Of a stretch of DNA of 48,925 nucleotides, positions 1,478 through 30,714 are shown in pieces. The stretch spans positions 1 through 48,925 of the forward strand of contig CASXBC010000002.1 in assembly GCA_949474265.1 (NCBI GenBank), in the 5' to 3' direction. Position 1 is the stretch's first letter, and every line of letters starts with the position of its first letter. The notes under the pieces are model-generated. The model was not told the DNA's origin and searched no databases. It saw only the letters and a list, made by a program, of their open reading frames with translations. The position numbers and the translations under genes were made by a program. Source of the DNA: an uncultured bacterium. GTDB lineage: Bacteria > Bacillota > Clostridia > Christensenellales > UBA1242.

Positions 1478-1501
1478 CCGACCAAAATGTCGGTTTTTTT
1501 A
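1478..1501 (+). terminator. Intrinsic terminator CCGAC-caaaat-GTCGG-T8
   Basis: Stem-loop plus T-run directly after the XRE stop. Confidence 0.85.
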
Positions 1502-1547: not shown

Positions 1548-1579
1548 TTGACTTTGCACGGGGGGGGGTATTGTATAAT
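1548..1579 (+). promoter_or_regulatory. Promoter TTGACT - 20 bp spacer containing G9 - TATAAT
   Basis: TTGACT 1548-1553, G9 1560-1568, TATAAT 1574-1579, about 20 bp upstream of the ATG at 1601. Confidence 0.75.
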
Positions 1580-1600
1580 TGACTGATGAGGTATTAAATT

Positions 1601-3223
1601 ATGTATTTAACTAAAGATAAAGGAAAAAGATATTGGACCGTGATGTCATTTATTTTTTTAATGATTTTAGGGGTGATAACTTATTATTTGGTAGATTCTT
1701 TTATTGATATATCTTATTTGGCAAAAGCTTGCACTTGGAAGTTTGTTTTGGTTACTATTTTGCTTTTGATTGATTCAGTTGCTTTAATAAGTGGGATTTT
1801 GTGTGGAGCAAGGGAATCTTTTTTTCAACTTGCATTTTTTATTGTAAGGAAAAGAGTTTATAAAGAACATAAAAAAATTGCTGGCACACCACTTAAAAAT
1901 CATCCAAAAGTTGTAATGCTTTATTGTACATGCAATGATTTTGTAGAAAGTGCCTTGGCAAAGTCAATTAGACAAAATTATGACAATTTTGAGACAATAA
2001 TTTTGGATGACAGCACCAAACCTGAATATATAAGAAGAGTTGATAAGTTTGCAAAGCTGTATAACTTGCGAGTTGTAAGAAGGGAAGAACACGTTTTCTT
2101 TAAGGCTGGAAATTTAAACCATTATCTCAAAAATCATCAAGATGAATATGATTATGTGGCAGTGCTTGACAGTGATGAGCGAGTTCCAAATGATTTTATT
2201 GAGAGCATGTTGAAATATTTTGAGTATGACAGTTCAATTGGAGCTGTTCAAGCTGGGCACAAAGCCACAGAGGGAAAAAACATCTTTCAAGCACTTATGA
2301 GTATGAGTGTGAAAAGTTCTTATATTTACGCTTGGGCAGCCAAGAATCAATTTGGATTTATGACACTTGCAGGACATGGAATGATGTTGAGCAAACAAGC
2401 GATTGTTGATGCGGGATTTTTTCCAGAAATCATTATTGAAGATTTGGGCATCACTATGAAGCTTTATGAAAATGGATATAAAGTGGTTTGTGCAGCAAGT
2501 GTGGTTTGTGAAGAGGAATATCCGTCCAATTATATCATCACAAAAAAGAGACATCTAAAATGGCAAGAAGGCGGAGTCGAACTGCGGAAGAAGATGAAAA
2601 AAGATTTAAAAAGCAAAGAAATCCCTGCTTTCTTGAGATTTGATATTAGACTGCATTTGTGGTCATTGTGTGACAACACCATTTTTGCATTTCTACATAT
2701 TTTTATTTTGCTTCTTTTTCCATTTTTGGATTTTGCGTTGAGTGGGACAATAATTTATATCACAATCTTCTCATATATAGTTAAGTTACTTCCAAATATA
2801 AAAGACCTTGTAACATGGCTTTTCACGAAAGACTTTTGGAAACTTCCATTCTATCTTTTACTTCATGCTGTGGTTTACACTTCTTATATGCCAAGCATGA
2901 TTATCAGAATCTTTTGGGCATATCTAGGAAAGAAGCCATTTTTTTGGGTTACAACCAAAGGGAAACAAAGGGTGGTTGCTTTGCAAATTTTAAAACACTC
3001 AATAACTCCATTTGTTTTTGTTTCAATAATTTCTGTTTTGACATATTTTGCTTTTAATTCTCTTGCACCGTCAAGGTCAACAATTTTGGCTGGGGTGCTT
3101 GTGCCAATTTTTATTATTCTTGCCAATATTGAATTTAAGAGAAAAAAGAAAAACAATTTAAAATGTGAGAAGATGCTTAAATTGTCACAGGCTCCAAATT
3201 CAGTACTCTTCCATTTAAGTTAG
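1601..3223 (+). CDS. Membrane family-2 glycosyltransferase (cellulose/hyaluronan synthase-like)
   Basis: YDYVAVLDSDERVPNDF (DxD), IIEDLGITMKLYENGYK, KRHLKWQEGG (Q/RxxRW-like), multiple TM segments. Confidence 0.85.
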   Translation: MYLTKDKGKRYWTVMSFIFLMILGVITYYLVDSFIDISYLAKACTWKFVLVTILLLIDSVALISGILCGARESFFQLAFFIVRKRVYKEHKKIAGTPLKNHPKVVMLYCTCNDFVESALAKSIRQNYDNFETIILDDSTKPEYIRRVDKFAKLYNLRVVRREEHVFFKAGNLNHYLKNHQDEYDYVAVLDSDERVPNDFIESMLKYFEYDSSIGAVQAGHKATEGKNIFQALMSMSVKSSYIYAWAAKNQFGFMTLAGHGMMLSKQAIVDAGFFPEIIIEDLGITMKLYENGYKVVCAASVVCEEEYPSNYIITKKRHLKWQEGGVELRKKMKKDLKSKEIPAFLRFDIRLHLWSLCDNTIFAFLHIFILLLFPFLDFALSGTIIYITIFSYIVKLLPNIKDLVTWLFTKDFWKLPFYLLLHAVVYTSYMPSMIIRIFWAYLGKKPFFWVTTKGKQRVVALQILKHSITPFVFVSIISVLTYFAFNSLAPSRSTILAGVLVPIFIILANIEFKRKKKNNLKCEKMLKLSQAPNSVLFHLS

Positions 3224-4467: not shown

Positions 4468-4476
4468 GGGGGGGGG
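4468..4476 (+). repeat. Poly-G tract (G9), intergenic
   Basis: AAAGATA-GGGGGGGGG-AGTCC. Confidence 0.95.
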
Positions 4477-14044: not shown

Positions 14045-14474
14045 ATGATTTCAGAAGATAGAAAGAAACATATTTGGGGTGTTGCCAAATTTTTGAAAAG
14101 ATATGCTCAAGAAGAGAATATGAGTCAAGATGATATTCATTCATTATATCTACTTGGACTTTTGCATGATATAGGTTATGAGTTTCTGGATGAGAAAGAC
14201 TATATCACTCACAATGTTGTGGGGGGGGGGATTTTTAAAGTCTCAAGGCTTTAAGTATTGGAAAGAGGTTTATTATCATGGAGTTGCTGGTTGTGAATAT
14301 CAAAGCAAGTTTTTAGACCTTTTGAATTGGGCTGATATGAGAATTGATAGTGCAGGAAAAGAGGTTTCTCTTGATGGCAGGCTGGAAGAACTTTCCAAAA
14401 GATACAATGTGCCTTTAAAAGAATTGGATTCGTATCCTATTGTATGTGAGCTTAAAGCCAAGGGATTTAAATAA
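14045..14474 (+). pseudogene. HD-domain protein interrupted by a +1 frame disruption at a G10 tract (possible phase-off allele)
   Basis: Track ORFs 14036-14254 and 14178-14474 are N- and C-terminal halves of one HD protein (LLHDIGYEF ... HNVVGGG | FLKSQGFKYWKEVYYHG ... LNWADMRID); junction is exactly G10 14221-14230. Confidence 0.85.
14221..14230 (+). repeat. Poly-G tract (G10) inside HD-domain ORF
   Basis: TTGT-GGGGGGGGGG-ATTTTT. Confidence 0.95.
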
Positions 14475-14540: not shown

Positions 14541-14569
14541 TTGACAAAAATTTTTGGCAGTGTTATATT
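14541..14569 (+). promoter_or_regulatory. Promoter TTGACA-17-TATATT for T-box transcript
   Basis: Consensus -35, 17-bp spacer, good -10. Confidence 0.8.
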
Positions 14570-14575
14570 GTTAAC

Positions 14576-14800
14576 AGAGATGATGACGAAGAAAGAGTAA
14601 CCTTTGACCACTTGTTTTCAGAGAGATATGGTAGGTGTGAGCATATCAACAAGAAGAAGGCGAAGACAGCTTAACAGTCTTGTGCTTTGGCTGAGCAATA
14701 TCAGCTTTAATAAGAGGTTGTTAAATCAACAAGTTAGGTGGCACCGCGGACCATAAAAGTTCGTCCTAATGCAGTTTTGCATTAGGGCTTTTTGTTTTTA
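14576..14800 (+). ncRNA. T-box leader (Asp-type, putative GAC specifier at 14665-14667) with terminator
   Basis: AGAGAGATATGG..GTGAGCATATC distal stem I; GTTAGGTGGCACCGCGGACC T-box; CGTCCTAATGCAGTTTTGCATTAGGGCTTTTTG terminator. Confidence 0.92.
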
Positions 14801-14868: not shown

Positions 14869-16155
14869 ATGACAACACAAATTTCAAAATTGGAAGTTGG
14901 AAAAGTTAGATTTCAAGGAATGATTGAAACTGTAAGAGACAAAAAAAGCATGCAGTTTATTGTTTTGAAAGACTTTTCTGGCAAAATTCAGGTGACAGTT
15001 GACAAAACTGCACACCCTGAAGTGGGCGAAGTCTTTTCACATCTTCTTCCTGGTTCAACAGTGGTCATTGAGGGAGAACTTGTAAAAAGCGAATATGTAA
15101 AAATGGGAGGTCAAGAAGTTTTGGCTGAGGCAGTAACTGTCACAAGTGATGCAAAAGAGCCTTATCCAATCACTCCAGAGAGCAATATTGACCAAAGAAT
15201 TGACTATCGTTGGATTGACCTTCGTCAAGAGAAAAACCTGCTTATGTTTAAAGTGCAAACAGCTTTTACAGATGCACTAAGACAGTTTTTGTTGGAGAGA
15301 GACTTTACTGAGTTTCACTCACCAAAATTGATTGCAACGGCATCTGAAAGTGGTTCGGAAGTTTTTGAAGTGAAGTATTTTGACCGTAAGGCATACCTTG
15401 CTCAAAGTCCACAGTTTTACAAACAGCTTGCAATTTCTGCAGGCTTTGGCAGAGTTTTTGAGTGTGGTCCTGTTTTTAGAGCAGAAAAATCTCACTCTAG
15501 AAAGCATGCAACAGAGTTTACAGGTTTTGACTTGGAATTTTCTGGGATTGAAAGCTATGAAGATGTTATAAAACTTGAAGAAGAACTTTTAGCTTATGCT
15601 CTTAAAAGAGTTAAAGAAGCTTATGGAGAAAAAGTTAAAGAGTTATTTGGCGTTGAAATTGTTGTGCCAACAATTCCTTTCCCAAGAATGAAACTTTCTG
15701 AGCTTTATGCCGAACTTGAAAAAAGATATGGCTATGTTTGCCCAGAAGAAGAGCAAGGAGACCTCTCAACAGAGGCAGAGAAACTTTGTGCAAAGTTTAC
15801 TAAGGAAGCATTTGGTCATGAATTTATCTTTGTGACTGACTACAGTGCTAAAAAGCGTGCTTTCTATCACTTTAGAAAAGATGGAGTTCCTCAAGGTTAT
15901 GACCTTATTTGGAAGGGAGTAGAAATCACAACAGGTGCTCAAAGAGAGCATAGATTTGATGTGCTTAAGGCTCAAGCAGAAGAAAAAGGTTTGGCAAAAG
16001 ACGTTGAGTTTTATTTGCAATTTTTCAAGTATGGATGTATGCCTCATGGCGGATTTGGTCTTGGACTTGACAGAATCCTTATGAATATGCTTGAAGTTGC
16101 TAGCATTAAAGAAGCTATGTTTATCTTCCGTGGACCAGATAAACTTACACCATAA
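14869..16155 (+). CDS. aspS: Aspartyl-tRNA synthetase, short archaeal-type (aspartate-tRNA(Asp/Asn) ligase)
   Basis: 428 aa class II aaRS: FTEFHSPKLIATASESGSEVFEVKYFDRKAYLAQSPQFYKQ, VFRAEKSHSRKHATEFTGFDLE, GGFGLGLDRILM. Confidence 0.9.
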   Translation: MTTQISKLEVGKVRFQGMIETVRDKKSMQFIVLKDFSGKIQVTVDKTAHPEVGEVFSHLLPGSTVVIEGELVKSEYVKMGGQEVLAEAVTVTSDAKEPYPITPESNIDQRIDYRWIDLRQEKNLLMFKVQTAFTDALRQFLLERDFTEFHSPKLIATASESGSEVFEVKYFDRKAYLAQSPQFYKQLAISAGFGRVFECGPVFRAEKSHSRKHATEFTGFDLEFSGIESYEDVIKLEEELLAYALKRVKEAYGEKVKELFGVEIVVPTIPFPRMKLSELYAELEKRYGYVCPEEEQGDLSTEAEKLCAKFTKEAFGHEFIFVTDYSAKKRAFYHFRKDGVPQGYDLIWKGVEITTGAQREHRFDVLKAQAEEKGLAKDVEFYLQFFKYGCMPHGGFGLGLDRILMNMLEVASIKEAMFIFRGPDKLTP

Positions 16156-29993: not shown

Positions 29994-30024
29994 TTGACTT
30001 TTTCGGGGGGGGGTATGTTATTAT
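29994..30024 (+). promoter_or_regulatory. Promoter TTGACT - 19 bp spacer containing G9 - TATTAT
   Basis: TTGACT 29994-29999, G9 30005-30013, TATTAT 30019-30024; homologous to the promoter at 1548-1579. Confidence 0.75.
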
Positions 30025-30048: not shown

Positions 30049-30714
30049 ATGAAAAAAGAGTGTGTGGTAATTACCGGTGGAAATTGTGGATTGGGAGCAG
30101 AATTGGTAAAACTTTTCAAAGAAACCTATCAAGTAATTTCAATTTCTAGAACAAAGAGAAAAGAGCTAGCTGGTGTGAAATACTTTTATGGCAGTGTTGC
30201 TGATGAAAAATTTTTAAAAGATGTTTACAAACAGCTTTCAAAAAGTTATGATGTTAAGTATCTTGTAAACAATGCTGGAGTGGGGAAATTTGGTCCTCCT
30301 ACAGAAAACAATTTAAAGAAGATAGAGACGGTGCTTGAAGCTGTGCTTGTTGGAACGATTTTGAATACGACCTATGCCATACCACTCATGCAAGAGCAAG
30401 GTGGAAAGATTGTAAATGTCATGTCTACGGCGGCATTGAAAGGAAATCCAAATGAGACGCTTTACTGTGCAAGCAAGTGGGGTGCAAGAGGATTTACCGA
30501 AAGTTTGAAAGCCTATTTTAAGGGAACAAATATCAAAGTTATGGGTGTTTTTCCAGGAGGCATAAATACTCCATTTTGGAATAAGAATAGAGACTGTTGG
30601 TCAAAAGAAGTTACAGACAAATTTATGGATGCTGAAAAACTTGCAAAAACAATTTATGATGCAATCACTAGTGATGGCGTGGCGGTTTCTGACATAACTA
30701 TTGATAGAGTTTAA
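30049..30714 (+). CDS. SDR family NAD(P)-dependent oxidoreductase (paralog of 3308-4030)
   Basis: TGGNCGLG, LVNNAGVGKFG, LYCASKWG, PGGINTPFWNKNRD. Confidence 0.88.
   Translation: MKKECVVITGGNCGLGAELVKLFKETYQVISISRTKRKELAGVKYFYGSVADEKFLKDVYKQLSKSYDVKYLVNNAGVGKFGPPTENNLKKIETVLEAVLVGTILNTTYAIPLMQEQGGKIVNVMSTAALKGNPNETLYCASKWGARGFTESLKAYFKGTNIKVMGVFPGGINTPFWNKNRDCWSKEVTDKFMDAEKLAKTIYDAITSDGVAVSDITIDRV

Follow-up and report, generated by a model that had tools for sequence, protein, structure and literature searches.

The window, that is, the whole 48,925-nucleotide stretch of DNA analysed here, carries a gene for a membrane family-2 glycosyltransferase (GT2) whose promoter holds a run of nine guanines between its −35 and −10 hexamers. 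The features of this locus are the following:

1478..1500, + strand: intrinsic terminator (CCGACCAAAATGTCGG plus T-run), between the upstream HTH gene and the GT2 promoter
1548..1553, + strand: −35 hexamer TTGACT, read from the sequence
1560..1568, + strand: G9 homopolymer in the promoter spacer, the proposed slippage switch (from the sequence and from enrichment over shuffles)
1569..1574, + strand: weak alternative −10 hexamer TATTGT, with a 15-bp spacer at G9, read from the sequence
1574..1579, + strand: −10 hexamer TATAAT, with a 20-bp spacer at G9 (from the sequence; the genus optimum is 17 bp)
1601..3223, + strand: membrane GT2 of 540 amino acids, the putatively controlled gene (Pfam PF13632/PF13641/PF00535)

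The layout is AAAGC TTGACT TTGCAC GGGGGGGGG TATTG TATAAT TGACTGATGAGGTATTAAATT ATG, with the start codon at 1601 and GAGG at 1588–1591 as a possible ribosome-binding site. The spacer from TTGACT to TATAAT (1554–1573) is 20 bp long and is made up of 6 bp, the G9 run and 5 bp; as in porA-type promoters, a G/C homopolymer of at least 8 lies between sigma-70-type −35 and −10 hexamers. An earlier note on this DNA had placed TTGACT at 1548, TATAAT at 1574 and G9 in a 20-bp spacer between them, and had pointed to the weaker TATTGT with its 15-bp spacer; direct reading finds all of these exactly where they were said to be. With the HTH gene upstream closed off by the terminator at 1478–1500, GT2 has no evident promoter other than the one with G9. 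Our promoter scan accepts spacers of 16–18 bp only, and this 20-bp promoter is therefore absent from its list. Two other modes of control were considered and dropped. Flanking inverted repeats, as expected of an invertible promoter, were sought around the GT2 promoter and gave imperfect AT-rich pairs only, and an Rfam search of the whole window returned two tRNAs only, with no riboswitch or other cis-RNA family in the GT2 leader. The best NCBIfam match of the GT2 product is the poly-N-acetylglucosamine synthase PgaC/IcaA, far below the cut-off, and its PDB matches, to chondroitin synthase and cellulose synthase, are weak.

The G9 run has company in the window, where 9 matches to G8 (four tracts of 9–10 G) are found against 0.08 expected from dinucleotide shuffles. 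The placement of the G9 run and the abundance of G tracts are not due to chance. The other three tracts, and the gene behind one of them, are these:

4468-4476: G9 tract, intergenic, without a clear promoter, downstream of tRNA-Ile
14221..14230, + strand: G10 tract in the coding sequence of an HD-domain-like gene; the reading frame is open with G9 or G12 but not with G10
29994..30024, + strand: second promoter built like that of GT2, TTGACT-TTTTC-G9-TATGT-TATTAT, with a 19-bp spacer and the tract at 30005-30013
30049..30714, + strand: short-chain dehydrogenase (SDR), downstream of the second G9 promoter (Pfam PF00106)

Judged from its reading frames, the HD-domain-like gene is likely a translational phase-variable gene that is now OFF. 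The sequence that follows the tract at 4468-4476 (AGTCCACTCAA) duplicates the 3′ end of the tRNA gene and is perhaps the remnant of a tRNA-targeted insertion. Separately, a T-box-like leader (AGGTGGCACCGCGG plus a terminator) lies at 14560-14790, ahead of the gene at 14869, and has no Rfam match at the gathering threshold. The SDR has orthologues in two sister species (G034 and G035) that are 64–65% identical to it, and their promoters, TTGACA-ACTA-C8-GTGT-TATTCT and TTGACA-AGCA-C8-GTGT-TATTCT, carry C8 in the spacer where the window has G9.

The pattern extends through the genome from which the window comes (1.11 Mb in 52 contigs), with about 34 tracts of at least 8 G (71 matches to G8) in an assembly that is fragmented and in which tract lengths may be wrong by one or two bases. 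At least 14 of these tracts are placed between −35 and −10 hexamers, and a loose promoter pattern gives 11 matches versus 0 with the reversed pattern. Eight of the tract promoters are repeats of a single design, TTGATA-N9-G8..11-TATACT (or TTTACT, TATAGT); wherever the −10 can be read, the spacer measures 17 to 20 bp. Behind them, counting only genes that are not cut by a contig end, lie signal-peptide proteins, most of them large and with InlB/Listeria-Bacteroides repeats. Two members of this family share an identical 19 bp before the tract and 29 bp after it, yet one has G10 and the other G8. Promoters with poly-C tracts occur in the same genome as well (L028, L034 and L040), and some of the remaining tracts are within coding sequences. 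An in-frame G9 is also present within a thymidylate kinase gene at L008:1242-1892; thymidylate kinase is normally essential, which makes it an odd host for a slippery tract. Six of the approximately 34 tracts are within about 65 bp of a contig end, compared with 0.19 expected; this excess could come from mixtures of tract lengths, or else from flanks that are repeated.

Related genomes show the same arrangement. Within the genus, the loose pattern matches 71 of 112 genomes and gives 446 matches versus 71 with the reversed pattern (nested matches counted), and poly-C promoters are found in 62 of the 112, with 1 match for the reversed control. Across the order, a stricter promoter pattern with at least eight G matches 87 of 347 genomes, with 0 for the reversed control. 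In a class-wide sample outside the order, the loose pattern mostly gives zero to two matches per genome, with exceptions such as G471 and G363. Several of the tract promoters in relatives belong to paralogous families and are hence not independent of one another. In two genomes, an inverted repeat (TAGGGTATC...GATACCCTA or similar) follows the −10 box of G-tract promoters; it sits at the expected transcription start and is repeated at many loci (L097, L098 and L076 in G031, L066 and L106 in G064).

Could the poly-G runs be artefacts of assembly or sequencing? Short reads are prone to errors in homopolymer length, and two-colour chemistry creates spurious poly-G. Against this, unique sequence flanks the tract on either side, G as well as C tracts occur on the coding strand, and the tracts recur at promoter spacing in dozens of genomes while the reversed controls are nearly empty. 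We give the artefact explanation almost no credence.

What the tract promoters hold constant is informative. Among the tract-free TTGACA/TATAAT pairs listed for the genus, the spacer is exactly 17 bp in 69 of 147 and 19 or 20 bp in only 5, which upholds the 17-bp optimum assumed in the earlier note and places the 20-bp GT2 spacer off it. In tract promoters the homopolymer may adjoin the −35, be central or adjoin the −10, and the total spacing is mostly 15–20 bp. The lengths of the 5′ and 3′ flanks compensate for each other (Spearman −0.78 for G tracts and −0.50 for C tracts), and the spacer variance is 5.0 versus 21 for shuffled flanks, with none of 5000 shuffles as low. Flank compensation and low variance together indicate that the conserved quantity is promoter spacing and not a tract-containing motif; as expected of a porA-type switch, spacing rather than tract position is conserved. 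Tract length and total flank length show no anticorrelation in the loose genus set (r 0.01): the position of the tract shifts, with no adjustment of its length to the flanks.

Tract length itself differs between sites with the same flanks. Such differences (e.g. G7/G8/G9) are seen in 11 promoter groups from 9 genomes, and the G10/G8 pair described above shows the same in the genome of the window, all at sites other than the GT2 locus. These differences are the expected footprint of slippage. The comparison set holds one genome per species, and a search of viral contigs for same-species variants in tract length gave no match.

These observations bear on whether the tract could instead be an element with a fixed role in the promoter, either structural or as a binding site for a protein. 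Many copies per genome do share a common flank and mostly one length (15 copies of G8 and 3 of G7 in G031), as a fixed element would. But the tract moves from beside the −35 to beside the −10 with the total spacing held, orthologous promoters carry G in one species and C in another, tract length varies among sites whose flanks are identical, and in homologous genes the tracts lie in coding sequence, where a role as a binding site would make no sense. We consider a fixed element improbable.

The genes behind tract promoters have a common theme. An N-terminal hydrophobic segment is present in 37 of the 49 genes that follow tract promoters versus 10 of 38 open reading frames of the window, a difference whose p of about 1e-5 is generous because the 49-gene sample includes paralogues. 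The products include BspA-type leucine-rich-repeat proteins, InlB-repeat proteins, lipoproteins and another GT2. Secreted and surface proteins make up most of what tract promoters drive, and surface-exposed or surface-modifying products, among them the GT2 of the window, would be under their control, as in porA-type systems.

Homologues of GT2 itself are patchy, being found in 13 of 309 genomes of the family, and none of the 12 in other genomes has a promoter tract. The homologue in G040 has an in-frame coding G9 just before the catalytic DSD motif, and that in G899 has a G8 at a different site, exactly at its frame break; the chance of at least two such coding tracts among 12 homologues is P ~7e-4. 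Independent gain of tracts, of different base and at different positions, in homologous genes is the strongest sign of selection for switching itself. In two further homologues of the family (L134 and L136), the frames are broken at short C5 or G5 runs, away from tracts of G8 or longer, perhaps through decay, assembly error or short contingency tracts. The patchy distribution and these two frameshifted homologues would fit the view that the homopolymer arose by chance, in a weak promoter of the ordinary kind or at a gene that has decayed. The GT2 frame in the window is, however, intact over its full length, the four tracts of the window far exceed the shuffled expectation, and the genome-wide pattern already contradicts chance; we regard this explanation as very improbable.

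Loss of mismatch repair as the origin of the tracts can be rejected, as 111 of the 112 genomes in the genus carry mutS. In the genome of the window (G000), the gene is split over two contig ends (L088 and L089, on contigs C37 and C16), with no homopolymer at the break. With MutS present, a mutator background is neither needed nor implied, and slippage need not be unusually fast.

Phase variation of the porA type, by slippage, very probably best accounts for a G9 run in the GT2 promoter. We propose that the run is a contingency tract within a sigma-A (sigma-70-type) promoter, at which slipped-strand mispairing would gain or lose guanines, change the spacing between −35 and −10 and so alter GT2 transcription reversibly and at random. 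If TATAAT is in use, the promoter would be weak at G9 (20 bp) and strong once two or three guanines are lost, at G6–G7 (17–18 bp); if TATTGT is in use, it would be strong at G10–G12. We infer slippage at the GT2 locus itself, the direction of its effect and its benefit; GT2 is probably OFF at G9, and the likely role of the switch would be heterogeneity of the cell surface within the population.

The same switch could also work with opposite polarity. If TATTGT is used too, a gain of one to three guanines would turn GT2 ON, and in a biphasic version, with TATAAT used at G6–G7 as well, the response would be ON-OFF-ON. TATTGT adjoins the tract, like TATACT in the TTGATA family; the start predicted from it (~1581) would keep the whole ribosome-binding site, whereas that from TATAAT (~1586) would give a very short leader; and two −10-like boxes 5 bp apart (TATGTT/TATTAT) are present in the SDR promoter too. 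TATAAT, on the other hand, is a perfect hexamer and TATTGT matches at 4 of 6 positions, and AT-rich DNA easily yields overlapping TANNNT boxes. Opposite or biphasic polarity is possible but, on balance, rather unlikely.

Textbook examples of phase variation through spacer length come from Neisseria and from a small number of other host-adapted bacteria. In Neisseria meningitidis porA, according to a review that cites van der Ende et al., one-base changes in the poly-G of the spacer alter spacing and transcription (PMC3899988), and tract lengths in isolates are around 7–11 (PMC6735796). The GT2 promoter likewise has a G tract between −35 and −10, but the gene, phylum and cell envelope are unrelated, and here 14 or more loci per genome share the design. 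Neisseria opc varies through the length of a promoter C tract (PMC3960869) and fetA also has one (PMC7371114), which resembles the C8–C9 spacers of the genus studied here, where, unlike in opc and fetA, C and G tracts interchange at orthologous promoters of sister species. Every member of the vlp surface-protein family of Mycoplasma hyorhinis has its own homopolymer promoter switch (PMC10502178), just as the TTGATA-N9-Gn-TATACT family has one tract promoter per member; the vlp tracts are, however, poly-A rather than poly-G/C and control lipoproteins of Mollicutes. In Haemophilus influenzae hifA/hifB, a repeat between −35 and −10 also alters the critical spacing (PMC3899988), but it is a TA dinucleotide repeat in a bidirectional fimbrial promoter. 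The length of a promoter C-stretch sets transcription of Bordetella fim2/fim3/fimX (PMC1891110), as homopolymer length is proposed to do here; in the Bordetella model the relevant distance is that from the activator-binding region to the −10, not the −35/−10 spacer.

The porA-like reading put forward in the earlier note is essentially right. It is backed by tract promoters across the genome and the order, by constant spacing, by recurrence in homologues and by tract lengths that differ between identical flanks, and the note understated the scale of the phenomenon. In the openly accessible literature we found no earlier account of spacer-tract switching in this group of Clostridia, although subscription papers may differ, and the work on phase variation in gut bacteria that we found concerns invertible DNA (e.g. 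PMC5903667, PMC11892184). The mechanism is known; its scale, the taxon, and the interchange of G with C and of promoter with coding tracts are the new part and appear undescribed.

Overall, these genomes may well share an order-wide phasome of promoter spacers, in which G/C spacer homopolymers would be the standard means of diversifying surface proteins and glycosyltransferases in many small-genome uncultivated Clostridia, with dozens of promoters in some genomes. Tracts would arise repeatedly, swap G for C and trade places with coding tracts, so that the switch, and not its sequence, would be what is selected. That the same genes have gained tracts again and again, as G or C and in promoter or coding sequence, provides a natural test of selection for switchability. 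If each 1-Mb genome does rely on slippage promoters at tens of loci, inversion-based surveys would miss much of the surface variation of these bacteria, and the tract lengths in metagenomic reads already available could give a direct measure of it.
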